This document shows positions 3,282 through 23,869 of a DNA stretch of 23,869 bases, piece by piece. The notes under the pieces were generated by a model. It made no database searches. It saw nothing but the letters and a program-made list of their open reading frames with translations, and was not told the origin of the DNA. The translations under genes and the position numbers were made by a program. Origin of the DNA: a virus; IMG/VR virus record IMGVR_UViG_3300044678_000294, positions 1 through 23,869 of that record. One strand, written 5' to 3'. Numbering within the stretch: position 1 is the first letter of the stretch; each line of letters starts with the position of its first letter.

Positions 3282-4427
3282 ATGGCAAGTACATATTCAG
3301 CTTTAAAAATTCAGCTCATGGCCACGGGTGAGAACTCAGGTACGTGGGGTAACGTAACAAACGTAAACTTAGGCACAGCCTTAGAAGAAGCTATCGTTGG
3401 CTCAGCGGATGTAACTTTTGCTAGCGCTACTGTAACGCTAACGCTTACAGATTCTAACTCTACACAGGTAGCGCGTAATCTACGTTTAAACCTAACAGGT
3501 ACATCTGGTGGTGCACAGAACTTGATAGTTCCCACCATTGAAAAAGTCTATATTGTTAATAACGGATGTGCGGATGTCATTACAGTTAAAAACTCCGGTG
3601 GCACAGGTATTGCAGTTCCAGCCGGTAAAACAATGTGGGTTTATAACGACGGCACAAACGTAGTTGATGCGGTTACTCATTTAACATCATTAACACTAGG
3701 CACAGCGTTACCTATCGCTTCCGGTGGTACAGGCTCAACATCTACAACCTACGCTAATTTACAGTCAAACGTGACTGGGGTTCTTCCAGTTGCTAATGGT
3801 GGTACAGGCTCTAACTCAGCAACATTCTCAGGCGCAAACATAACAGCATTAAATGCAACATCAATATCAAGCGGCACTATTGATAATGCGAGAACAACAG
3901 CTTCAAGCTCAAACGGTGCTTCAACAATCGTAGCTCGTGATGCTTCAGGTAACTTTACTGGCGCTACTATTACAGCTACAACATTTAGCGGTTCTGGCTC
4001 TGGTTTAACTGCACTTAATACAACAGCTAGCTATCAAGTAGGCTCATTTGGTGTTGGCACAGCAGCTTCAGGTACAGCTGGTGAAATTCGTGCTACAAAC
4101 AACATTACAGCATATTACTCTTCTGACGCTAAGTTCAAAGAAAATGTGCGTGTAATTGACGGCGCTGTTAGCAAAGTAGCTGCGATTGGCGGTAAATACT
4201 TTGATTGGACTGATGCTTACATTGCAGAGCATGGTGGCGAAGATGGGTACTTTATTCAGAAAGCTGACTTTGGTGTTATTGCTCAAGATGTGCAAGCAGT
4301 ATTCCCACAAGCGGTTCGTAGCCGCCCAGACGGGTCACTAGCGGTAGATTATGAAAAATTAAGCGCATTAGCTTTTGCTGCTATTGCTGAACTTGTTAAA
4401 CGGGTAGAGGTTTTGGAGGGTAAATAA
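3282..4427 (+). CDS. Tail fibre with C-terminal peptidase S74 (intramolecular chaperone) domain
   Basis: This 381-residue tail fibre opens with a conserved-looking virion-attachment segment (SALKIQLMATGENSGTWG). A beta-rich Thr/Asn/Gly shaft follows, with two ASGGTGS/ANGGTGS-type turns near residues 146 and 169. From about residue 275 it becomes a peptidase S74 domain. The self-cleaving dyad is visible as S281 and K286 in SSDAKFKEN, followed by FGVIAQDVQAVFPQAV and a terminal coiled coil (LVKRVEVLEGK). S74 domains assist trimerisation and then cut themselves off the mature fibre. A taggag site precedes the ATG, and the TAA overlaps the next ATG as TAATG. This is probably the main receptor-binding fibre. 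Confidence 0.88.
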   Translation: MASTYSALKIQLMATGENSGTWGNVTNVNLGTALEEAIVGSADVTFASATVTLTLTDSNSTQVARNLRLNLTGTSGGAQNLIVPTIEKVYIVNNGCADVITVKNSGGTGIAVPAGKTMWVYNDGTNVVDAVTHLTSLTLGTALPIASGGTGSTSTTYANLQSNVTGVLPVANGGTGSNSATFSGANITALNATSISSGTIDNARTTASSSNGASTIVARDASGNFTGATITATTFSGSGSGLTALNTTASYQVGSFGVGTAASGTAGEIRATNNITAYYSSDAKFKENVRVIDGAVSKVAAIGGKYFDWTDAYIAEHGGEDGYFIQKADFGVIAQDVQAVFPQAVRSRPDGSLAVDYEKLSALAFAAIAELVKRVEVLEGK

Positions 4428-5311
4428 TGACAACGCCTTCAGGACAAATATCGCTAGGTGACGTTAATACTGAATTAGGGTATTCAGCCACAGCTTTAAT
4501 TACTATGAACGACGCAGCAGTGCGCACGCTTGCTGGTGTTGGTGGCTCAGGCACGGTTATAACAATGCAAAATTTGCAAGGTAAGTCTAACCGCGTAACT
4601 GCAAACGTAACAATTTCATCTGATACAGCTAACTATACGTTTAATACAGCAAAGATTACGGGATACGATGCAGGTAAAACTGATGCTACGTTAACAATTA
4701 ACTCAGGTGTAGTAGTTTATTCTGGTTCAACGGGTTCATATGCTTTGACTGTGGACACTTCATGGAATGTCTCAGATACAGTAACAATTGTTAATAGTGG
4801 TACTATTTTAGGTGATGGTGGTAACGGTGGACGAGGTGGAGGAGGTCTTCCTATATCTTCAGGCACAGGAGCTGGCCCAGCGTTATTAGTTCAACGCGCG
4901 ATTACTATGAGTAATTTAAATAGAATTGCTGGCGGCGGTGGTGGTGGCGGCGGCGGTGGTTATAGCATTGCAAACGTATCAACTAAAAGTGCTTTTACTG
5001 TTTCAGGTGGCGGCGGTGGCGGCGGTATAGGGGGAGGTAGCGGTGGACCTGGTGGAAATTCTAGTCCTTTTGGTACTTCTGGAACAGCAGGTACACTAAC
5101 ATCGGCTGGTCCTGGAGGAGCTGGTAGTAGCGGTCCCGGCGCTGTTGGTGGAACCGGCGGTAATGGTGGTAGCTATGGTAGTGGGGGGAGTAACGGAGGA
5201 GGGACACCTTTCGAAGGCGGTGCTAGTGGAGGTGCGGCTGGAGCAGCTATTGTTGGTAACTCAAACATTACTTATACAAATACAGGGACCATAAACGGGT
5301 CGGTTAGTTAA
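4427..5311 (+). CDS. Glycine-rich tail/adhesin protein
   Basis: This 294-residue protein has a beta-rich N-terminal half (about 1-130) and a C-terminal half made of long glycine runs interrupted by Ser, Pro and Asn. Examples are GGGGGGGGGGY and GGPGGNSSPFG. It ends TNTGTINGSVS. Gly-rich sheets of this type occur in phage receptor-binding adhesins such as the gp38 class, where they form polyglycine-II packing. Location directly after the S74 fibre supports a distal tail or adhesin role. The glycine codons give short GGT/GGC nucleotide repeats prone to expansion and contraction. Identity beyond a Gly-rich tail protein is not certain. Confidence 0.7.
   Translation: MTTPSGQISLGDVNTELGYSATALITMNDAAVRTLAGVGGSGTVITMQNLQGKSNRVTANVTISSDTANYTFNTAKITGYDAGKTDATLTINSGVVVYSGSTGSYALTVDTSWNVSDTVTIVNSGTILGDGGNGGRGGGGLPISSGTGAGPALLVQRAITMSNLNRIAGGGGGGGGGGYSIANVSTKSAFTVSGGGGGGGIGGGSGGPGGNSSPFGTSGTAGTLTSAGPGGAGSSGPGAVGGTGGNGGSYGSGGSNGGGTPFEGGASGGAAGAAIVGNSNITYTNTGTINGSVS
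4931..5240 (+). repeat. Low-complexity GGY (glycine-codon) tract
   Basis: Runs of ggt/ggc/gga codons are concentrated at 4931-4960, 5007-5027 and across 5130-5240, inside the Gly-rich tail gene. Near-identical short units recur, so slippage could change adhesin length. The tract stays in frame throughout. Confidence 0.65.
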
Positions 5312-5325
5312 ATAAAGGAATAAAT

Positions 5326-5676
5326 ATGGACTACGTAATAAATAATTTTAACGAGGCTACTGGACAGATTTCTGTTACATTTGGTGGAGTTTTAACCCAT
5401 TCAATTGATGTGCCTTTAGATAGCAACAACCTATACATAACTGATGAGGCGCTTGATGCGTACATAAAAGGTTTTGCGCCGGTAGATTTTATAACAAGAA
5501 AAAATAAAATTGCCGCTGGTATTGCTAACTCAGCAGTATTAAAAGCTTTAGAAACAGAGCCTTTACAAACCAGTCAGACAGAAGTAGACCTTCAAGCTAT
5601 TGAAGATGCCAAAGCTGCTGAGATTGAAAAGTTTGTTAAAGCTGCATTAATTAAAAACGGAATTATTTCTGTATGA
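5326..5676 (+). CDS. Small tail-fibre-associated protein (possible fibre chaperone)
   Basis: This 116-residue protein has a beta-rich first half with PLDSNNLYITDEALDAYIKG, then a helical second half ending FVKAALIKNGIISV. Small proteins with this LDAYIKGF-type core commonly follow fibre genes in aquatic phages. A fibre-assembly chaperone or fibre-tip role is inferred from location, not from a recognised domain. AAAGGA precedes the ATG, and the stop overlaps the next start as ATGA, so it is translationally coupled to the ATP-grasp-like gene. Confidence 0.65.
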   Translation: MDYVINNFNEATGQISVTFGGVLTHSIDVPLDSNNLYITDEALDAYIKGFAPVDFITRKNKIAAGIANSAVLKALETEPLQTSQTEVDLQAIEDAKAAEIEKFVKAALIKNGIISV

Positions 5677-6530
5677 CAACAGTCAAAATACTCCCAGCTT
5701 CGTTAGAACAAGCCACTGCAGAAGTTAAAGCAGCGTCGTTTGTTACTCCTTTAATTGAAGTTCTTGAACGAAATAACGTTGCTTATTCGTTTACTGAGGG
5801 GGATATTGACTTTGTTACGCAAGACCACTTAGCAATAAATGCAACTAATGCGTACCCTAATGGTATAGCGGCTAAGCTACTTGACAAAAAAGAATTGCAA
5901 AATACCCTAACCCCATTTGGTTTTAATGTGTTAGCTACAGAAGTAATTACAGATGTAGATGCTATTACTTTAACTAACTTTATTGTTAAGCTAAAAGAAG
6001 GTTCTGGCGGCAACTTAGAGGGTTCTACATACAAAAACTGGTTTGGTGGCGTGCTATTCACTGATAAAGAGGCATTTAAGCGCCACCCTTTATTCCAAGA
6101 CATGTTTGTTGCAGGTAAATACATTGCTCAGCAAGCTATTAGTAACGTCAGAAATCATACAGCTGTAAGCATATCAGCTACTGTTAACAGTAACGGCAAT
6201 GTTTATTTTGTCCGCAGTGCAACCGACACTTGGGTCAACTCAGTGCGTACACACGCTACGCTAAGTTACCAAGGTTACGAAGAACAGAAGCAACAGATTC
6301 AGGCTTTTGTTAAAGCAGTTGGTATAAAGAATGCTGTATTGATGCTTCAGTTTATGGTTCAAGACGGTGTGTTGTACCCTATTGATTGGAATTTTAGACT
6401 TGGCGTAAACATACCTACGCAAATGATTACTCGTAATTTTATTGAGTACGAAACGGCTATTCTTCACATGGTTGGCAGTGCACAAACTCCAGCTGCAACT
6501 TACACAGATGTGTGGGAAGTAGACTTTTAA
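5673..6530 (+). CDS. ATP-grasp-like ligase
   Basis: This 285-residue protein shows ATP-grasp landmarks in order. A DKKELQ...PFGFNV segment (about 71-86) resembles the start of the central domain. FIVKLKEGSGGN (103-114) resembles the nucleotide-binding VKP..GSGG loop. A beta strand and turn lie around FVAGKYIAQQAI (145-156). VQDGVLYPIDWNFRLG (229-244) carries D238-x-N240-x-R242, the place of the canonical E-x-N-x-R Mg/ATP signature. ATP-grasp enzymes form amide or thioester bonds through acyl-phosphates. The substrate is unknown. The gene is coupled upstream to a fibre-associated gene and lies just before a zinc ribbon and a 2OG oxygenase. It is shorter than many family members, and the fold call is by motif only. 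Confidence 0.62.
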   Translation: MTTVKILPASLEQATAEVKAASFVTPLIEVLERNNVAYSFTEGDIDFVTQDHLAINATNAYPNGIAAKLLDKKELQNTLTPFGFNVLATEVITDVDAITLTNFIVKLKEGSGGNLEGSTYKNWFGGVLFTDKEAFKRHPLFQDMFVAGKYIAQQAISNVRNHTAVSISATVNSNGNVYFVRSATDTWVNSVRTHATLSYQGYEEQKQQIQAFVKAVGIKNAVLMLQFMVQDGVLYPIDWNFRLGVNIPTQMITRNFIEYETAILHMVGSAQTPAATYTDVWEVDF

Positions 6531-6538
6531 AGGCTAAT

Positions 6539-6757
6539 ATGATTCAAGATAACGCTGCAGTTAAACTAGAAGACGGTACTATTCTTGCTAAACACAAGGT
6601 AGAAATCCTTTGCCCTAACTGCAGTCGTGATGTTGATGAAGCAGAGTTGACTGCACAGAAGTGTAATGATTGCGGACATGACCTTTCTACGCCCAAACAG
6701 AACGTTGCTATCAACGTAACATCAAAACCAATTGGTACTAAAGTTTGGGGCCAGTAA
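6539..6757 (+). CDS. Small zinc-ribbon protein with Trp-Gly-Gln C-terminus
   Basis: This 72-residue protein has a four-cysteine zinc ribbon, C25-x2-C28 ... C42-x2-C45 (CPNC and CNDCGHD), then a beta-prone tail ending KVWGQ. I chose the ATG at 6539, which has AAAGG 9 bases upstream, over a GTG at 6512 lying inside the ATP-grasp-like gene. The size, the ribbon and the C-terminal Trp-Gly recall LysW, the amino-group carrier whose C-terminal Glu is loaded by the ATP-grasp enzyme LysX. This protein ends in Gln and is less acidic, so the likeness may be chance. A plain virion zinc ribbon is the alternative. Confidence 0.72.
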   Translation: MIQDNAAVKLEDGTILAKHKVEILCPNCSRDVDEAELTAQKCNDCGHDLSTPKQNVAINVTSKPIGTKVWGQ

Positions 6758-6760
6758 TAC

Positions 6761-7324
6761 ATGAGTACGCTAGTGAACTACACATATTGGAAGTGGGACG
6801 CCGTATTAAGCAAAGAGTTTTGTCGCTCTGTACTAGAGCAGATTGACTGGGCAACGGCCAAAGACGCAACTATAAATGAAAATGGACAAGCAGTTGTTGA
6901 CCCTAAGTCTAGACGCACAGATGTCGTCTGGCAGCCATCTATACAGCCTATAGGATGTGTTAGCAAATGCTACATGGAGATAGCCAATCAGTCAGCCGAG
7001 TGGGGATATAACTTAAGCGGACAAGAAAATACGCAGATTGGCAGATATAAGAGCACAGATGAAGGGTATTATGACTGGCACATAGACGCCACTGCCCCAC
7101 AAAACGGTATACAACGCAAACTTTCTTGCGTTATTTTGCTAAATGACCCTTCTGAATTTGAAGGAGGTATCCTACAATTAAAGGGTATGGAAGACCAAAA
7201 CGTACTTGATAAACAGGGAAGTATTATTGTTTTTCCTTCATTTATAGAACATAAAGTAACACCTGTAACAAAAGGTGTTAGGTATTCAGCAGTGACTTGG
7301 GCGAGTGGCCCATCATTTAGATAA
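6761..7324 (+). CDS. 2-oxoglutarate/Fe(II)-dependent oxygenase (prolyl 4-hydroxylase-like)
   Basis: This 187-residue protein has the complete active-site set of the P4H/PKHD superfamily. The Fe ligands are H107-x-D109 (YYDWHIDA) and H164 (FPSFIEHKVTPV), and R174 (KGVRYSAV) binds 2-oxoglutarate. The GGILQLKG strand and the GSIIVFPS turn between them are typical. Such enzymes hydroxylate protein side chains or small molecules and are recurrent accessory genes in aquatic phages. It starts 3 bases after the zinc-ribbon stop, so the two are co-translated. The substrate is unknown. Proline/glycine-containing tail proteins upstream are possible targets, as are products of the ATP-grasp-like enzyme. 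All key residues are present, so activity is likely. Confidence 0.88.
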   Translation: MSTLVNYTYWKWDAVLSKEFCRSVLEQIDWATAKDATINENGQAVVDPKSRRTDVVWQPSIQPIGCVSKCYMEIANQSAEWGYNLSGQENTQIGRYKSTDEGYYDWHIDATAPQNGIQRKLSCVILLNDPSEFEGGILQLKGMEDQNVLDKQGSIIVFPSFIEHKVTPVTKGVRYSAVTWASGPSFR

Positions 7325-7333
7325 AGGCTAGCG

Positions 7334-7795
7334 ATGCGTAAGTTATTAGTAGGGCTATTGATATGTGGTTCTGCTTATGCGCAGGACACAACAATTAACT
7401 ACAAAGGCCAGCCTCCAGCAGGTGCTATGGCGCCGAGTATCTCTTCGTTCAGCCAAGATAACTGCTTGGTTGCGGTCTCTGGGGCTATTAGCTCTACGGT
7501 GATTGGCTTTTCTGGTGGTAGCTACATGATGGACGAAGATTGCTCAAGGCGTAAATGGGCTACATTCTTATCTAACAATGGACTTAAAGTAGCTGCGGTT
7601 GCTATTGCTTGTTCAGCACGTGAAGAAAACTGGGATGCCATGATGATGTCAGGCACGCCTTGTCCGATTGATGGTCTCGTTGGCGATGCTGCCCGTAACG
7701 AGTGGATTAAACGTCACCCTGAAAAGTTTAAGAGATTATATGGTTCGGTTCCTCCTCTTGTTGAGCTTAAGCCTACTGATTCTAAGGAGCAATGA
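7334..7795 (+). CDS. Secreted protein with Sec signal peptide, unknown
   Basis: This 153-residue protein starts with a signal peptide (basic MRK, hydrophobic core, likely SPase I cleavage after AYA at residue 16). The mature part contains a hydrophobic Gly/Ser stretch around residues 47-64 and several cysteines (in NCLVAV, EDCSRRK, IACSA and TPCPIDG), which suggests disulphides in the periplasm. A clear AAAGG lies 6 bases before the ATG. I recall similar proteins in freshwater phages near lysis genes, without a known function. Its 3' end overlaps the start of the next gene by 56 bases. It may act in lysis or envelope modification, by context only. Confidence 0.72.
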   Translation: MRKLLVGLLICGSAYAQDTTINYKGQPPAGAMAPSISSFSQDNCLVAVSGAISSTVIGFSGGSYMMDEDCSRRKWATFLSNNGLKVAAVAIACSAREENWDAMMMSGTPCPIDGLVGDAARNEWIKRHPEKFKRLYGSVPPLVELKPTDSKEQ

Positions 7796-8711
7796 TGTTC
7801 AAGCGAATTGTTATGCTAGTACGTGGTCTAATGGGGTGCCAGTCTACGGCTCCCTCTTCGTTGACGGTGGAACAACCCTCGCCCAGTGCCAAGCGCTCGC
7901 GTGCCAAATCTACCCAAGTATCTCCCCAAGCTGCCCAGGCGCAACCCCGCCCCCGCAAGTCGTCACCTGCACCTACTCAGCGCAAACCGAAACAAGAAGC
8001 TGCCCCATCAACTTCAGCGGCTCGCAAACCTGGAAAAAAGAAACCAACTGCCCGACAGGTAGCTATGGTCAGCCAGTCCAAACCGACTGGTTCAAAATCC
8101 AAGACACCTGCGTCCAAAACCCGCCAACATGTCAAATAAGCAGCCAACAACAAACGCTCAGCTGCCAGACAGGCTATACGGGGAGCATTACCCAGACTCG
8201 TTCCTCGATGTGTCCAGACCCATACGGGAGCCCAACGTGGCAACCTTGGGTGACTACATCAGACACTTGCAAGAAGTCGATAAACAACCCAACGAATCCT
8301 GTGTCGCCTGTGTCGCCCCTGAGTCCAACTTCAGCCACATCTGCCCCAACAATCCAATCCTCACCTGTAACTGCACCGACCCCAAATACTGTGCCGAACT
8401 CGGAAACGACCCCGACCGCCAGTACAGAGACCCAGACCCAAACAACGACGGCTTCTCCGACAACCTCGACTACACAGGCATCCCCATCCCCGCCCCCAAA
8501 AGGGAAAGTAAGAAGCTCGGTTGGCCTTGCGTTGTCGTTGGAGCTGTTTGTGAAACCTGGGTTACAACAACCGAACGTATTCTCAGAACCACAGCTGGTG
8601 AGTGGGATACCGAACAACATACTAACGCAGGACTTAATAATGATGGACCTGCTGCAACAACCAAGCTATAACCAACCATTTGATGCACCCGACTTAGGAT
8701 TTGAACAATGA
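7740..8711 (+). CDS. Secreted Cys-rich repeat protein with Pro/Ser/Thr-rich linker
   Basis: This frame encodes 323 residues with a Leu-rich signal peptide (about 1-22, cleavage after VQA). Two cysteine modules follow at 77-124 and 131-177, spaced C-x10-C-x15-C-x19-C and C-x10-C-x15-C-x18-C. A Pro/Ser/Thr/Gln-rich linker spans about 178-265, and the C-terminus ends APDLGFEQ. I start it at the ATG at 7740 because an earlier ATG (7668) would destroy the signal peptide. This frame has strong C bias at third positions while the other long frames here do not. The stretch 7845-8640 is clearly GC-richer than its neighbours, so it looks acquired. The function is unknown. It probably acts in the periplasm or outside the cell. 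Confidence 0.75.
   Translation: MVRFLLLLSLSLLILRSNDVQANCYASTWSNGVPVYGSLFVDGGTTLAQCQALACQIYPSISPSCPGATPPPQVVTCTYSAQTETRSCPINFSGSQTWKKETNCPTGSYGQPVQTDWFKIQDTCVQNPPTCQISSQQQTLSCQTGYTGSITQTRSSMCPDPYGSPTWQPWVTTSDTCKKSINNPTNPVSPVSPLSPTSATSAPTIQSSPVTAPTPNTVPNSETTPTASTETQTQTTTASPTTSTTQASPSPPPKGKVRSSVGLALSLELFVKPGLQQPNVFSEPQLVSGIPNNILTQDLIMMDLLQQPSYNQPFDAPDLGFEQ
7784..7789 (+). promoter_or_regulatory. Strong ribosome binding site (AAGGAG) of uncertain target
   Basis: AAGGAG lies 5 bases before ATG 7795 (and 2 before ATG 7792). Neither ATG is in the frame of the Cys-rich gene, which starts at 7740. The site instead fits the nested lipoprotein-like frame 7795-8139. It may be a relic of a gene order that existed before the GC-rich segment was inserted. 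Confidence 0.5.
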
Positions 8712-9160
8712 GCGATTTAGAGAAATTAGATAAAGTACAAGGCTTCGTAGATAAGTGGGTCACTTGGGCCAAACAGAACACCATGGTGGCTGGTTTCATC
8801 ATTGCTGGCGTGCCTGTTATTTTAGGTGCTGGCTATACAAGCATTACCAAGTTCAACGAAGTCAAAGAGATGTATGAAGGCTACAGCGACACTGCCGCAT
8901 CCGCATCAGCCGCAGAGCGCAAGGTTAAGCTACTAGAAGAGAAGGTAGCCGACCAGCGTGAAGTCATCGCTAAGATGCAAGAGCGCCTAGCCGAAGCATT
9001 GATGGCAGCCCGTGAAGCTAAGATTGTTGCAGAAAGCACACAGAAAGAACTACGTTCTGGCATGGCTGCACAAAAAGTTGAGCTAGATATTACAAGTTCT
9101 ACATTACGCTCTGAGATGAATACATTAAAACGTGCAACAACTAACCGATTAGGAAACTAA
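8708..9160 (+). CDS. Single-span membrane protein with coiled coil (spanin-like)
   Basis: This 150-residue protein has a short charged N-terminus, one transmembrane segment (about 25-44, MVAGFIIAGVPVILGAG) and a long charged Ala/Glu/Lys/Arg coiled coil (about 66-145). This is the topology of an inner-membrane spanin (Rz class), which bridges to the outer membrane at the last step of Gram-negative lysis. It lies directly before the holin and endolysin, and it overlaps the previous stop as ATGA. The cytoplasmic N-terminus is longer than in lambda Rz. No separate outer-membrane spanin gene is obvious apart from the doubtful nested frame at 7795-8139. Confidence 0.6.
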   Translation: MSDLEKLDKVQGFVDKWVTWAKQNTMVAGFIIAGVPVILGAGYTSITKFNEVKEMYEGYSDTAASASAAERKVKLLEEKVADQREVIAKMQERLAEALMAAREAKIVAESTQKELRSGMAAQKVELDITSSTLRSEMNTLKRATTNRLGN

Positions 9161-12230: not shown

Positions 12231-12737
12231 ATGACAACATCTATACAAAACACTCACGATAAGGTAAAGTTCAGACAGGATGTATTAACTGTTGAACAGG
12301 GTATAAAAGACAAAGTTGCGTCAGGAGAAGTTATTCCAGATGATAGCCCTCTAAAACATTACTTTTCGCCAATAGATGAGAAATATGGTTGTTGCGCTTA
12401 CGCAAGGGAAATTCTTTTACGCAAGGGCTCACTAGTTATAGGTAAAATACATAGGCATCAGCACTTAAATATTATCTCTAAGGGTAAAGTTACAGTGTTT
12501 ACAGAATTTGGTAAGAAAGAATTAGAAGGACCGTGTACTTTTGTGTCAGAAGTAGGGTTGAAAAGGGCTGTTTATGCCCATGAAGATACTATTTGGACAA
12601 CCATACATCTAACTGCTCATGTAGGCGAAGAGAATTTAGACAAAATGGAAGAGGAAGTTATAGCCCCAAACTATAGCGACCTAGGATTAATAGCGTCTGT
12701 TAATGACCTAGTAAAAATTAAAGAGGAAAAACTATGA
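12231..12737 (+). CDS. Cupin-fold protein
   Basis: This 168-residue protein has a central double-stranded beta-helix. Motif 1 is GKIHRHQHLNIISKGKVTV (metal-ligand candidates H74, H76, H78). Motif 2 is VYAHEDTIWTTIHLT (H117). The usual cupin motif-1 glutamate is not obvious, so metal binding may differ or the fold may serve only for structure or ligand binding. Small cupins occur between structural genes of aquatic phages, and their role is unknown. The gene starts right after the previous stop and overlaps the next start (ATGA), so it is co-translated with structural proteins and may be virion-associated. Confidence 0.7.
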   Translation: MTTSIQNTHDKVKFRQDVLTVEQGIKDKVASGEVIPDDSPLKHYFSPIDEKYGCCAYAREILLRKGSLVIGKIHRHQHLNIISKGKVTVFTEFGKKELEGPCTFVSEVGLKRAVYAHEDTIWTTIHLTAHVGEENLDKMEEEVIAPNYSDLGLIASVNDLVKIKEEKL

Positions 12738-17514: not shown

Positions 17515-20500
17515 ATGGCTAAGTATGAGCTAGAAGATTTTGATGGTGAACTTGACCCTGCACAAGCGGCTTCTAAATATGAACTAGTTGACTTTGAAGG
17601 TGAACTAGACCGGGTAGAGGGTAAAGGTCCTAAGCAGCTATCTAGGGAGCAAGGTAAAGGTGTGGGGGCTAACTTCTCTCGCGCTTTTAGTAACTATTTG
17701 CCACAATTACAAGAAACAACAGGTGCTGCACAGGTACTTAGCGGTGTAGTTGCGCAAAAATTAGGCGCCAAAGAGACTGGTACTAACTGGGTACGAAGTG
17801 GTATCGAGAGTATGGAAGAGGGTCAAGGCGAGATGGTTGTCAGAGAATCTGACACATTTTTAGGTGCTTACGACCAAGGTATCGGCACGGTTATAACAGA
17901 ATACTTACCTTATATGGTGGGTTCTGGTATTACAAGTGTGGCTGAAATTGCTGCGTCTATGGGCGTTGGTGCGTTACTTGGTGGTGTTGCAGGAGCTGGT
18001 GTAGGAGCAGTTCCAGGCGCTATTGCAGGTGCTATTAATAAAGAGCTAGTTAAAAAAGGTGTTAAGGCTGAAGCTAAGAAAATTGCCGATAAAATGGGCA
18101 AGGAAGAAGCCAAAGCATATATTGAAGCAGAGTCTAAGAAAGTTCTTACTGAAGCCGCTACTAGATTGATGGCTAAAAAAGGCGCTCAAAGGTTAGGCGC
18201 TACTACTGGTATGGCTGGGTCATCAATACTTCATGGTATGGGTGAAGTTACAGGTAGAACTGTAGAAGAACTAGAGAAAAAAGGTCTACGCCCAGAAGAC
18301 ATGGACTTAGCTCGTGTATTGCCAGCGGCAGCGCTACATTCAGTGGCAGACTTTGTAGCCGATAAATTTTTATTGCAATCACTCAAGGGGCTAGATATTA
18401 CGGCTTCTAGGTCTTTAGCATGGGATATTACTAAGGCTATAGCGGTTACAGGTACTAAAGAACTTATTCCTGAACAAATTCAAACTATTGCTGAACGCTA
18501 TGGCGCTAGCTTATCTTTAACTGATGCTGAAGCCCTTAAAGACTATATTAATACTGCTGCCGCCGCGTATGCAATGTCTATAGGACCAGCCTCAGTGGGT
18601 GGAGTTCGCGCACACGTAGCGGGTAAACTTGAAAAAGATTTAAATCAGACTCAAGAAGAAGTTAATAAAATTAAGCAGAAGTTTGTTGTCGGTGATGACT
18701 CTTCTGTAGGAACTACTTCGACTGCTAACGTAGTGGATGACCCAGACTTGGCGCCGGCTAGTGATGAAACAGGTAAACCACTAATTGCTGTTGACCAAAG
18801 CACAGCTGTTCCGGCCCCTCCAGCAGCTTCTGAAGTTAACCAAGAAACCCAAGCTAGCTCTGCTCCAGCTGACTTAAATAAAGTTAATGAAGCGGTTGTT
18901 AATTTAAACCAACAACAAAGTGAAGCTTTAGATAAAGCTCCAGCAATTAAAGAAGAAGCAGCTCTTCCTGTTAATGAAGAAGTGGTTGCCAGCGTTACAG
19001 CTTATATTGCTGATATTGACTCAAATAAAGTTAAACCTAATGCGGCTAAACTAAAATCGTTTGCTGCTGCTCTGGGCATAAAGATAGAACCTGGTGAAGG
19101 GCTAAGTGCTAGAGCATTAACTGCAATTAAAGAACGTCTAACGGCGTTAGGAGGAGCAAATGTCCCAGTCACCAACGTTAACGATACAACAGGTGGAACT
19201 AGCGCTGCGATATCTGGACAGCAAACAGGAGTGCCCGCCGGAGGAGTTGCAGGAACTGTCGGCCAAGGACTGGGAGGAGCTCCAGCAGCTACTAACATTC
19301 CTGCAGGTGGAGAAGCAACACAGCAGCCTCCACTAGTAACACCTACTGCTACATCAACTGTTGCCGCACCGCCTGTAGCTACACCAGCATTTACACCGGC
19401 TGCACCTAGCGCACAACAAACAACAGGCTTTACTCCTGAAGCACAGTTGCGCCAAGCAATGATTGAGGAAGACCAGCGTAAAACCGCTGAAGAAGAACAA
19501 AATCGTTTAGCGTTTGAAGAGTCACAACGCAAGACTGTTCGTAGAGCTCCACAGATGCCTGAGATTCAAGAAGAGTATGAGGGCACTCGTCAAGAGTTTG
19601 AAGCTTTAGAATTACCAGCTTGGGAAAAATTAAGCGCCACTGAGAAAGATGTATATCTAGAAGGTATTAAAGATAACACCATTGCTGAGCACAATGCAGC
19701 GGCTAGAAAATTAGCTGAATACCGCGAAGGGCAGCAAGACGCTCTAGGCACTAAAGGACTGAAGCCATCTCAAATTCGTACAGTAAACATGTATGAAGAG
19801 AACCGTAAAACATACTCAAACCAAATGGGCATTCAGTTTCCTTCATGGGGCGAATTATCTGATAACGCGCGCAATGCTTATTTAAACGAAGTAGTTAACA
19901 ATACTCCTATCGAACAAGATTTTGGTTTTATAGAAATCGCCAAGAATCTAGAAGCTGAAGGTAGGGGTATACGCGGCGCAGCTAAAGTAGATATCGAGTC
20001 TGCTAAATTAGCTGGCCAATCTGAAGAGTCTAAAGCAGTTATACAAGAACGCGTAGCAAAAGAAAAAGCAGCTGAAGAGTCAGCACTTGGCAAGGGGGCT
20101 AAACTCCCTGAAGAAGCTATTGCATTACTTAAGAAACAAAATATCAACGGTTTCTTAGATTGGCTGTATGACAACGCCAAAGGATTCACAAGTTTAACAG
20201 CAAGAGTTGGAGACAAGACTTACAGAGGTGCTTCCACTAAATTAGCTCAGACTCGTAATCGTGCAGCGCAAATCATATTTAAATATATGGGGGCACGTTT
20301 AGGTCAGATAGACTTTAGTGGTTCTACTGTGATGATGAATCCTAAAGACCCTGTTATTCAAAGACTACAAAAAGAGGGTAAGCTAGCTGAATACAATCCT
20401 AGAACTAACACGTTCTACTTTACTCCTCAAGGTTTAGACCAAGTAACTGTATTGCATGAGGTTATTCATGCAGCAACCGTTAAGCTTATTAGCCGTTTTT

Positions 20501-23500
20501 ACTCTAACCCAAATTCATTGACTCAAGAGCAGCGCGAAGCTATTGAGCATTTAGATAAGCTCTTTAACTTTACTAAGAGCAAGTTGGGCGGCAAATTTAA
20601 AAACGCCTATGAAAATATCTACGAGTTTGTTACTTATGCTTTAACAGATAACAAGTTCCAGTTGGCTTTATCTCAAGTTCAGGCTCGTCCATTAGCTAAA
20701 TATACCTTGATGGCTAAAAATGCTTGGCGTCAATTTACCCAGGCGCTTAGCAAGATGTTTGGTTTGTATGACGCTAAAGCATCTAAAGAAGAGTTACCAG
20801 CCGAGATGTATCAGCAGGTTGCTAAAGAGTATGGCTCAATGGACCCTAACGAGCTATACAACGAAAAAATTATGGAGGAAATGGAAGAGCTAGACATAGT
20901 TATAATTCCTCCTACACTTGCTGAGCCTAAACCTAAAGAGCAAGACATCAAGGTTAAGAAAGTAAGAGTACCTACACAAGCTGAGAGATTTTTGACTATT
21001 GCTCCTGGCTTTGAAGGCAACGTACTACTTGAGATGGCAGAAATATTTGAGCGTATTGCATCAGCTCCAGTGCCAGTTAATGTGCAGCCACTTGCTGCTA
21101 AAAAAGCTGGCGCACAACCTAAACAGCCCAAACAAGCTGAAGAACCTAAAAAGGCTAAAGAACGTAGCTCAGCGGTTAGCGACTCTGATGAAAAGTCTTA
21201 TGATGTTAGAGAAGCTGATAAGTTAAAACCTTGGCAGTTTGTTAAAAATTTGTTGACTACTCAAGAAGGTCATAAAAATATCGTACAAGCTTTACAAAAT
21301 AAACACTATAGAGTTAAAGCATGGGAACGTATGTGGGAAAGAGCAGGCAAGATTGTTCACGACATCCCTGAGAAGATTAACAATATATACACTCAGATAA
21401 CTTTAGCAACCGGGCGTTCTAAAGTGTTGTATACAGTTTATGCAAAAGAATCCGCAGACAAACTAGAGTCAGCGTTCTATAAATACACAAAATTAACTGG
21501 GGATACAACTGAAAAAGCTTTGCGTGACTTGTTTATGTATCTAGAGGCGTTCCACGACCCTGAACGTCGTATGGTCAAATATATTCGTACAGTGCCTTTA
21601 AGCACTGCTAAAACTTTAAACGGTGGTGCTATAAGTCCAGCTGACCGTCGTGTATCTATTCTTAAGTTACTAGACGGAAAACAACTAAGTAAAGCTCAAG
21701 CTCAGCAGTTACGGCGCGAATTAAACACAATCATATTTCAAACTGATGCACAGGGTAATGTAGTTAAAGACGCACAAGGTAAACCACAACCTAACATGAA
21801 ATATGTTGATAAGTTAGGGCAAAGCCCACGCGCTAAATCTATAACTAAAAAAGGTGTTACTACTAAATCAGAAATGACTGTTGATTTTGACAACATCATC
21901 TATAGCGTAACTGGTCTCACTCGTGAAGGTATTCTTAAGCGTATGGAAGAATACAACAATAACCCTAATAAAGACGCTATTGATGAGATTAGAAAAGCTG
22001 TTCAAGAACTAAACGAAGCTACTAAACAGCTTAATAAGATTGGTAACTATTGGTCACAACCTGTAGATAACTATGTAAATTTTTACGGCTATAAAGACTA
22101 TATATCTCTAAAGGGTAAAGCTTTAAATGAAGACTTAGATGCTGAATTACATTTAGATTTAGACTTTACTGGTAAAGGCGGACGTGAAATGCAAGAGATT
22201 CCGTTCGAGGCAGCTGGTCGTATTTCAGTTGGTGAAAACCCAATTCTATTAACTATGTCTGAAGCTGCACGCGCTGCTATGCGCGCCGGTCGTAGAGATT
22301 TAACACTTGCTATTAAAAACTCTCTTAAAGCAAACAAATATAATCCAACAGGCCAAGGCTTAATAGATGGTGAAGTAATTAAAAAGATTCTTTTTGAAGA
22401 CCGCAACAACATAGATTTAAGAGAGCTAAGAGGTAAGACAACTTTATTCCATTACAACCAAGACGGTAGCATTGATATTATTGCTATACGCGATAAAAAT
22501 TTACTTGAGTCTATTCGTAGTACTTTTGGTAAAAGCCACAAGATTACTGAAATTTTTAACCAGCTAACCAGCGCTGTTGGACAAGGGCATACTCGGTACA
22601 ACTACAACTTTGCTCCAGGTAACTTTGTACGTGATGCGTTAACTAACGCATTTACGCTTGGCGCAGAAGAGAGCCCACTACAAGCTGTTAAATATTTAGC
22701 TGCTATTGGCTCAAAGGTTGCACAAGGTGGTTTAGCTAAATCAATGAAAGTGGCGGCTTTATATCAAACGGGTGACTATCAACAACTAGCTAAACTAGCT
22801 GAGTCTGACCCATACATTAGGGATATGGTTGAGTTTATTAATGAAGGCGGCATGGTTTCATATATTGAAAGTATTGCGCTTAAATCTAACTTTGAAGCTT
22901 TATACAGAGATGTAGATAAAAACGGGGTTCTTAAAACTAAAGAACAAGTTGATAAACTTTTAGACATATATAACGATATGTTTGAATTAGCAAGTCGTAC
23001 TGCTGCGTATAGTATTACTAAACGAAGTGAATTAGCAAAAAATGCAAGTCTTCAAACCGCTAAAATTAAAGCCGCCGCTCGTGCTAAAAACCTTGCTAAC
23101 TTTGAAGAAGTAGGCACTCACGGTAAATTAGTTGGCGCTATGTATATGTTCTTCCGCCCTGCTGCTACAGGTGCTGTTCGTGCTATTGAAGCCGCTGCGC
23201 CAGCGTTTCCTAATAGTCTTAAAAGGGCTGTTAAGAACCTTCCAGAGCAACTTAAGAATGACCCAGTAGCATTTGAGACATTTAAGAAGAACTACGCTAA
23301 ACAACAAAAAGCTGCTAGATATATGATTACTACTCTATTCGGGTATGGCATGGCTATGTATTATATGTCAGCGTTAATGGCGGATGATGATGATTTGGGT
23401 AGAAACGCTACTCAGAATGACAACATGGATTCGTGGACTAGATATGCTCGGTTCCACATCTCTAAAGAATTTACTAAATCTCTTGGCATTGAAAAACCCG

Positions 23501-23869
23501 TAGTATTCCAAATGCCTTGGGGTTTTGGTTTTGGTGCGTTTGCATCTGCTGGGGCGCAGTTTGCTGGTTACTTAGAAGGAGCACAAAGTGCTAAGAATAT
23601 GCTAGCTAACTTGTACTTGCAGATTGCTTTAGACTCGTTTGTACCAATCCCAGTATCACGTATGTCTCCAGCGGAAGAACCTTTAGAATTTTTACTAGAC
23701 TCTATAGCACCAAGTTTAGCCCGCCCATTACTAGAGTTTGTATTAAACAAAAACGGTTTAGGTCAAAACATCTACAGTGAATCTAACCGCCGTATGGGTG
23801 ATGCGTTTGTGGCTGGAGATAATATTCCTGAAGTTTATAAGGACGTAGCAAGACAGTTGTTTAAATCTA
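17515..23869 (+). CDS. Giant internal virion / polyvalent protein with zincin and LPD38-like regions (3'-truncated)
   Basis: The frame is open from the ATG at 17515 (GGGAG just upstream) to the window edge, over 2118 residues without a stop. The parts, in order, are as follows. A duplicated KYEL.DF.GELD motif lies at residues 3-14 and 21-32. A hydrophobic Gly/Ala stretch that could insert in membrane lies at about 127-172. A Pro/Ala/Thr-rich disordered part covers about 400-640, followed by Glu/Lys helices. A metallopeptidase motif H981-E-V-I-H985 is followed by a downstream Glu (E1037, YEFVTYALTD), the zincin pattern of phage polyvalent proteins. From about 1690, YNYNFAPGNFVRDALTNAF and a later MYMFFRPAATGAVRAIEAA resemble the C-terminal LPD38 domain. 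It is probably ejected into the host with the DNA. The C-terminus is not in the window. Confidence 0.75.
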   Translation, partial: MAKYELEDFDGELDPAQAASKYELVDFEGELDRVEGKGPKQLSREQGKGVGANFSRAFSNYLPQLQETTGAAQVLSGVVAQKLGAKETGTNWVRSGIESMEEGQGEMVVRESDTFLGAYDQGIGTVITEYLPYMVGSGITSVAEIAASMGVGALLGGVAGAGVGAVPGAIAGAINKELVKKGVKAEAKKIADKMGKEEAKAYIEAESKKVLTEAATRLMAKKGAQRLGATTGMAGSSILHGMGEVTGRTVEELEKKGLRPEDMDLARVLPAAALHSVADFVADKFLLQSLKGLDITASRSLAWDITKAIAVTGTKELIPEQIQTIAERYGASLSLTDAEALKDYINTAAAAYAMSIGPASVGGVRAHVAGKLEKDLNQTQEEVNKIKQKFVVGDDSSVGTTSTANVVDDPDLAPASDETGKPLIAVDQSTAVPAPPAASEVNQETQASSAPADLNKVNEAVVNLNQQQSEALDKAPAIKEEAALPVNEEVVASVTAYIADIDSNKVKPNAAKLKSFAAALGIKIEPGEGLSARALTAIKERLTALGGANVPVTNVNDTTGGTSAAISGQQTGVPAGGVAGTVGQGLGGAPAATNIPAGGEATQQPPLVTPTATSTVAAPPVATPAFTPAAPSAQQTTGFTPEAQLRQAMIEEDQRKTAEEEQNRLAFEESQRKTVRRAPQMPEIQEEYEGTRQEFEALELPAWEKLSATEKDVYLEGIKDNTIAEHNAAARKLAEYREGQQDALGTKGLKPSQIRTVNMYEENRKTYSNQMGIQFPSWGELSDNARNAYLNEVVNNTPIEQDFGFIEIAKNLEAEGRGIRGAAKVDIESAKLAGQSEESKAVIQERVAKEKAAEESALGKGAKLPEEAIALLKKQNINGFLDWLYDNAKGFTSLTARVGDKTYRGASTKLAQTRNRAAQIIFKYMGARLGQIDFSGSTVMMNPKDPVIQRLQKEGKLAEYNPRTNTFYFTPQGLDQVTVLHEVIHAATVKLISRFYSNPNSLTQEQREAIEHLDKLFNFTKSKLGGKFKNAYENIYEFVTYALTDNKFQLALSQVQARPLAKYTLMAKNAWRQFTQALSKMFGLYDAKASKEELPAEMYQQVAKEYGSMDPNELYNEKIMEEMEELDIVIIPPTLAEPKPKEQDIKVKKVRVPTQAERFLTIAPGFEGNVLLEMAEIFERIASAPVPVNVQPLAAKKAGAQPKQPKQAEEPKKAKERSSAVSDSDEKSYDVREADKLKPWQFVKNLLTTQEGHKNIVQALQNKHYRVKAWERMWERAGKIVHDIPEKINNIYTQITLATGRSKVLYTVYAKESADKLESAFYKYTKLTGDTTEKALRDLFMYLEAFHDPERRMVKYIRTVPLSTAKTLNGGAISPADRRVSILKLLDGKQLSKAQAQQLRRELNTIIFQTDAQGNVVKDAQGKPQPNMKYVDKLGQSPRAKSITKKGVTTKSEMTVDFDNIIYSVTGLTREGILKRMEEYNNNPNKDAIDEIRKAVQELNEATKQLNKIGNYWSQPVDNYVNFYGYKDYISLKGKALNEDLDAELHLDLDFTGKGGREMQEIPFEAAGRISVGENPILLTMSEAARAAMRAGRRDLTLAIKNSLKANKYNPTGQGLIDGEVIKKILFEDRNNIDLRELRGKTTLFHYNQDGSIDIIAIRDKNLLESIRSTFGKSHKITEIFNQLTSAVGQGHTRYNYNFAPGNFVRDALTNAFTLGAEESPLQAVKYLAAIGSKVAQGGLAKSMKVAALYQTGDYQQLAKLAESDPYIRDMVEFINEGGMVSYIESIALKSNFEALYRDVDKNGVLKTKEQVDKLLDIYNDMFELASRTAAYSITKRSELAKNASLQTAKIKAAARAKNLANFEEVGTHGKLVGAMYMFFRPAATGAVRAIEAAAPAFPNSLKRAVKNLPEQLKNDPVAFETFKKNYAKQQKAARYMITTLFGYGMAMYYMSALMADDDDLGRNATQNDNMDSWTRYARFHISKEFTKSLGIEKPVVFQMPWGFGFGAFASAGAQFAGYLEGAQSAKNMLANLYLQIALDSFVPIPVSRMSPAEEPLEFLLDSIAPSLARPLLEFVLNKNGLGQNIYSESNRRMGDAFVAGDNIPEVYKDVARQLFKS

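Follow-up and report, generated by a model that had tools for sequence, protein, structure and literature searches.

A divergent phage ATP-grasp protein encoded between an adhesin cassette and a zinc-ribbon gene: apparently neighbouring passengers of separate history

ATP-grasp ligases that act on a small protein carrier include LysX, whose carrier LysW ends in EDWGE. The amino acid is attached to the gamma-carboxyl group of the C-terminal Glu (Glu54) of LysW, and the GSWGR motif of the ligase recognises this end (PMC10433800). R2K-clade ATP-grasp peptide ligases are reported from phages, with modification of host proteins as their proposed role (PMC4431377, PMC7824862), and ORF28 of the LUZ24-like phage UFV-P2 belongs to the early module, where it is accompanied by genes for an amidoligase and a glutamine amidotransferase (PMC3890496).

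The window analysed here is the whole IMG/VR virus record IMGVR_UViG_3300044678_000294 (23,869 bases), which derives from an uncultivated tailed phage (a virus of bacteria). An earlier note had proposed that three genes at 5673–7324, encoding an ATP-grasp-like enzyme, a zinc ribbon and an oxygenase, form a joint ligase–carrier–oxygenase system. Its description of the locus holds: the coordinates, strand and near-abutting order are confirmed, and fibre and adhesin genes are recognised upstream (Table 1). The joint system itself does not survive comparison with other phages, as set out below. The three genes recur at 100% identity in a second IMG/VR contig. They are genuine genes and not random open frames, because the P0001 protein is conserved in two other phages (L033, 47% identity over 249 columns; L080, 30%) and the zinc ribbon occurs in 53 viral loci, i.e. 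that of the window's own phage and 52 others.

Table 1. Genes of the fibre-to-lysis region of the window
Feature	Coordinates	Strand	Remarks
S74 tail fibre	3282..4427	+	C-terminal S74 intramolecular chaperone; PF13884 2.7e-12, PHROG tail families
Gp38-like glycine-rich receptor-binding adhesin	4427..5311	+	PF05268 2.2e-6, phrog_2056 1.4e-16; upstream slot border
116-aa protein, function not assigned	5326..5676	+	relatives in L033, L088 and L089
P0001, divergent ATP-grasp protein (predicted), 285 aa	5673..6530	+	slot cargo; 4-nt overlap with preceding gene
P0002, four-Cys zinc ribbon, 72 aa	6539..6757	+	8-nt gap after P0001; C-terminus VWGQ
P0003, PKHD-type 2OG/Fe(II) oxygenase, 187 aa	6761..7324	+	3-nt gap after P0002
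153-aa secreted-looking protein	7334..7795	+	downstream slot border; encoded 3' of the zinc ribbon in both L033 and L088

The 153-aa gene is followed by overlapping small genes and then by an M15 peptidase endolysin. Three same-strand open reading frames here (7668–8711, 7792–8139 and 8129–8671, + strand) lie in different frames and overlap over about 900 bases; long overlapping frames are likewise open at the matching place in L033 and L088. Mismatches in the region of the long frame favour the third codon position, less so than in the neighbouring gene at 8708–9160. Dual coding would fit this mismatch pattern. Elsewhere in the window, a 168-aa protein (12231–12737, + strand) matches a PHROGs short tail fibre protein (phrog_12032, 1.3e-35) and no Pfam family, and a reading frame at 17515–23868 (+ strand), which stays open for at least 2118 codons and continues past the window end, probably encodes a giant internal virion protein.

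Searches of Pfam, NCBIfam and PHROGs with P0001 gave nothing useful, with no NCBIfam match up to an E value of 1. As a single sequence it matches 4dim, an ATP-grasp protein of solved structure, with an E value of 0.015, and a profile of the three known members strengthens this match to 2.8e-5. In the profile alignment, D238, R242 and G244 line up with the E, R and G of the last strand of 4dim, while N240 lies opposite a Thr. The D238-W-N240-F-R242 stretch holds the sole D-x-N of P0001, and together with K72, K106, G112 and Q226 it is invariant in all three members, which are as little as 30% identical. The features expected of an ATP-grasp protein (i.e. a conserved Lys pair, a glycine loop and a metal-binding acidic-x-Asn motif) are all found, as K72 and K106, S111-G112 and D238-x-N240-x-R242, each unchanged in the three members; their roles would be those of the analogous residues in characterised enzymes. 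AlphaFold predicts P0001 and the L080 protein with low confidence (mean pLDDT 48.7 and 48.1, respectively). Even so, Foldseek listed 50 PDB matches for each of these two poor models and every one is an ATP-grasp protein, with PurK and L-amino-acid ligases at the top and best E values among those listed of 2.2e-6 and 5.4e-7. VIA likewise points to the ATP-grasp superfamily (Z 8–9, up to 9.1), and in a viral fold library only ATP-grasp proteins of giant viruses and scattered phages were matched. Assignment of P0001 to the ATP-grasp fold, as the earlier note had suggested, is therefore well supported by the profile match, the Foldseek and VIA matches of the predicted structures and the invariant residues.

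Enzymatic activity of P0001 would follow by analogy with the superfamily. The protein could instead be a degenerate, non-catalytic binding protein that retains the fold, in keeping with the mismatch of N240 and Thr noted above and with the acidic residues typical of the ATP hinge, which are not evident by eye. Nevertheless, K72, K106, Q226, D238, N240 and R242 are maintained even in the most distant member, and we regard loss of catalysis as distinctly unlikely. Alternatively, P0001 might attach a tag to a protein of the host, the role suggested for the phage R2K-clade ligases, and thereby redirect the host or block its defence. The rare and patchy distribution of the family would suit such a role. 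However, no R2K match was found in Pfam. The R2K clade has a second conserved Lys/Arg in the loop after the strand-2 lysine; here the residue two positions after the strand-2 K106 is Lys, Arg or Ile in the three members, and this loop is poorly aligned. Tagging of a host protein is quite improbable.

We then consider whether P0001 could load an amino acid onto the C-terminal end of the zinc ribbon, with the oxygenase acting on the carried group, in the manner of LysX and LysW. P0002 has four zinc-binding cysteines (Cys25, 28, 42 and 45), where LysW/ArgW carriers have four or three, and ends in TKVWGQ, so that an ATP-grasp fold does adjoin a small zinc ribbon with a W-G-Q end, and WGQ or WGE ends are found in 19 of the 52 other loci (10 and 9, respectively). 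The remaining 33 end in ITW, ILW, STL, QTL, ATL, ATF, GVM, HTF, ITF or VTF. Moreover, an ATP-grasp gene lies beside the zinc ribbon in only one of these 52 loci (L033), and the ligase profile found no convincing match in 31 of the 32 other zinc-ribbon records scanned whole. Conversely, the L080 contig has the ligase, and no zinc-ribbon relative was seen there. At the sequence level, Gln replaces Glu54, P0001 contains no S-W-G and hence no GSWGR, and neither P0001 nor P0002 matched LysX or LysW in NCBIfam. By the earlier note's own standard, a zinc ribbon that is regularly unaccompanied by the ligase and differs at its C-terminus speaks against the proposal. The parallel is therefore largely refuted, and a carrier system of this type seems scarcely credible. 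The distribution of the zinc ribbon shows that it is not an amino-acid carrier and marks it as a conserved resident landmark of this phage group, which separates the fibre cassette from the lysis region. The phage DSL-LC04, for example, has the zinc ribbon with a GGGVM end, and its record contains no P0001 homologue.

P0003 is a 2OG/Fe(II) oxygenase with all its active-site residues, as had been noted: the HxD...H iron triad (H107-x-D109 and H164) and the 2OG-binding Arg (R174) are present, and it matches PF13640 (3.8e-16), phrog_61 (6.4e-40) and the solved PKHD hydroxylase PiuC (6e-9). Outside the phage of the window, the closest relative (L004, 93% protein identity) is encoded between TerL and portal, and further relatives (67% and 44%) likewise lie between terminase and portal. 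DNA similarity between the window and L004 spans exactly 6761–7324, from start to stop codon, and occurs nowhere else. Since the similarity is confined to this gene, P0003 is a mobile single gene that moved alone. A PF13640 gene is present somewhere in 14 of the 32 other zinc-ribbon records, so that nothing is unusual about finding an oxygenase in a phage of this kind. Two further arrangements were seen: tandem 2OG oxygenase genes (371 and 182 aa) at L067:1547–3214 in a zinc-ribbon phage, and, in the L036 record, an oxygenase gene with a copy downstream of it that is interrupted by an internal stop codon.

To judge from the loci compared, the region is a modular cargo slot between the Gp38-like adhesin with its 116-aa companion and the lysis region. 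After the adhesin and 116-aa genes, the slot holds (i) the ATP-grasp gene in the window; (ii) an ATP-grasp gene and a TctC gene in L033; (iii) a cupin gene in L088; and (iv) a directly adjoining 189-aa gene in L089, whose HxD...H...R pattern reads by eye as 2OG-like, with no Pfam match. The ligase is absent from the latter two. Three of these loci have the zinc ribbon at the far end of the slot; the L089 locus ends before that point. In L031, the genes immediately 5' of the zinc ribbon encode a DUF6817 protein and a second oxygenase. The 116-aa protein was also considered as a partner of the ligase and ruled out, because it follows a Gp38-like adhesin in four phages, some of which lack the ATP-grasp gene. 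To judge from their relatives, the three genes at 5673–7324 are independent passengers set side by side, with separate histories, and not one machine.

The slot position raises the possibility that P0001, alone or together with the oxygenase, acts on the phage adhesin or fibre, e.g. by attaching an amino acid or a peptide, and so alters receptor binding. The order adhesin, 116-aa protein and ATP-grasp protein in both the window and L033 would fit this, as would the frequency of oxygenase genes in zinc-ribbon phages. However, L088 and L089 have the adhesin and 116-aa pair without the ligase, and in L080, the most distant relative, the ATP-grasp gene lies outside any tail module. Decoration of a tail protein, which the earlier note had envisaged, is consequently unsupported and remains a fairly unlikely explanation.

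The P0001 family appears to be small, rare and unnamed, with three known members, and is overlooked by the standard libraries. P0001 and its L080 relative found no match in annotated phages and 84,980 genomes, and the ligase profile matched convincingly only L033 and L080 among 33 records scanned whole, many of which are fragments in which absence is not proof. A match of 11.6 bits in the L045 record is marginal and was taken as chance. A DNA pattern search for YP-[IV]-DWN gave one extra contig (L083), in which the match lies on the strand opposite a giant open reading frame and was likewise dismissed as chance.

Neighbourhoods of the two relatives bear on the possible substrate. The L080 contig, which encodes a gp59-type helicase loader, belongs to a T4-like phage, and its ATP-grasp gene adjoins genes for a TauD-type 2OG oxygenase and TctC-like and NMO-like proteins. 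The full row (L080:1953–7562) runs from the ATP-grasp gene through the TauD oxygenase, the TctC-like gene, a reverse-strand gene and the NMO-like gene to a second 2OG oxygenase, and is possibly a phage-borne metabolic cluster; the reverse-strand gene has an SGGSDS motif, PP-loop-like when read by eye. TctC is the tripartite tricarboxylate transporter receptor. L033 carries a full-length copy (TctC 6e-46) at 1552–2481, next to its ATP-grasp gene and within the phage fibre/lysis slot. Among 50,697 phage records, just two contain a relative of this protein, and a search of viral contigs returned the L033 copy only.

We therefore prefer a small-molecule substrate, given the TauD, TctC-like and NMO-like neighbours in L080 and the adjoining TctC, rare in phages, in L033. 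The interpretation that we hold to be somewhat the more probable combines a modular slot, a resident zinc ribbon and a mobile oxygenase with P0001 as an accessory small-molecule ATP-grasp ligase. By analogy with its superfamily, P0001 would use ATP to form an acyl phosphate on a carboxylate and would pass the acyl group to an amine, like L-amino-acid ligases and PurK/GAR synthetase-type enzymes; its substrate may be a small host metabolite, which would make it an accessory metabolic gene. Only two neighbourhoods in this family of three are informative for the metabolic reading, and with so few members it is a lead; against it, two of the three members sit directly behind an adhesin cassette, which would also fit a tail-modifying role. 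A bolder version, in which a rare, unnamed ATP-grasp family moves among unrelated phages in the company of 2OG oxygenases and TctC-type solute-binding proteins, so that a carboxylic acid is captured, oxidised and ligated to an amine, is unlikely. If true, the ATP-grasp/2OG/TctC route would be a small natural-product-like or nutrient-scavenging pathway during infection.

In brief, adjacency within a phage cassette can mimic a pathway, here through three co-directional, near-abutting genes with separate histories. The new phage ATP-grasp family is a modest find, and its occurrence with TctC-type neighbours in two unrelated phage lineages offers a lead on phage metabolic genes.

Compared with LysX/ArgX and LysW/ArgW, the likeness lies in an ATP-grasp gene adjoining a small four-Cys zinc ribbon that ends in W-G-x. 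P0002, however, has Gln in place of Glu and no EDWGE, so it lacks a side-chain carboxylate of the kind that LysX uses; P0001 lacks GSWGR, nearly all relatives of the zinc ribbon occur without a ligase, and other genes of the pathway were not recognised nearby. The R2K-clade and amidoligase-linked phage enzymes (PMC4431377; UFV-P2 ORF28, PMC3890496) are ATP-grasp accessory genes too, but P0001 is encoded in a fibre/lysis region with neither an amidoligase nor a glutamine amidotransferase. Judged by its stabilisation protein (35%) and zinc ribbon (53%), DSL-LC04 (OR003939, proposed Dishuiviridae, PMC10611076) is the nearest named relative, and differs from the window's phage in the zinc-ribbon end and the ligase as described above. 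Among phage 2OG-Fe(II) oxygenases (phrog_61; PKHD/PiuC-like), P0003 is an ordinary member, unusual only in its position behind the zinc ribbon. P0001 is smaller than the PurK/GAR-synthetase-like enzymes and L-amino-acid ligases (4dim, 3etj, 3vot and 4wd3), is less than 20% identical to them in the aligned regions and goes unrecognised by Pfam and NCBIfam, yet it appears to share with them the fold and the acidic-x-polar-x-Arg-x-Gly signature of the last strand.
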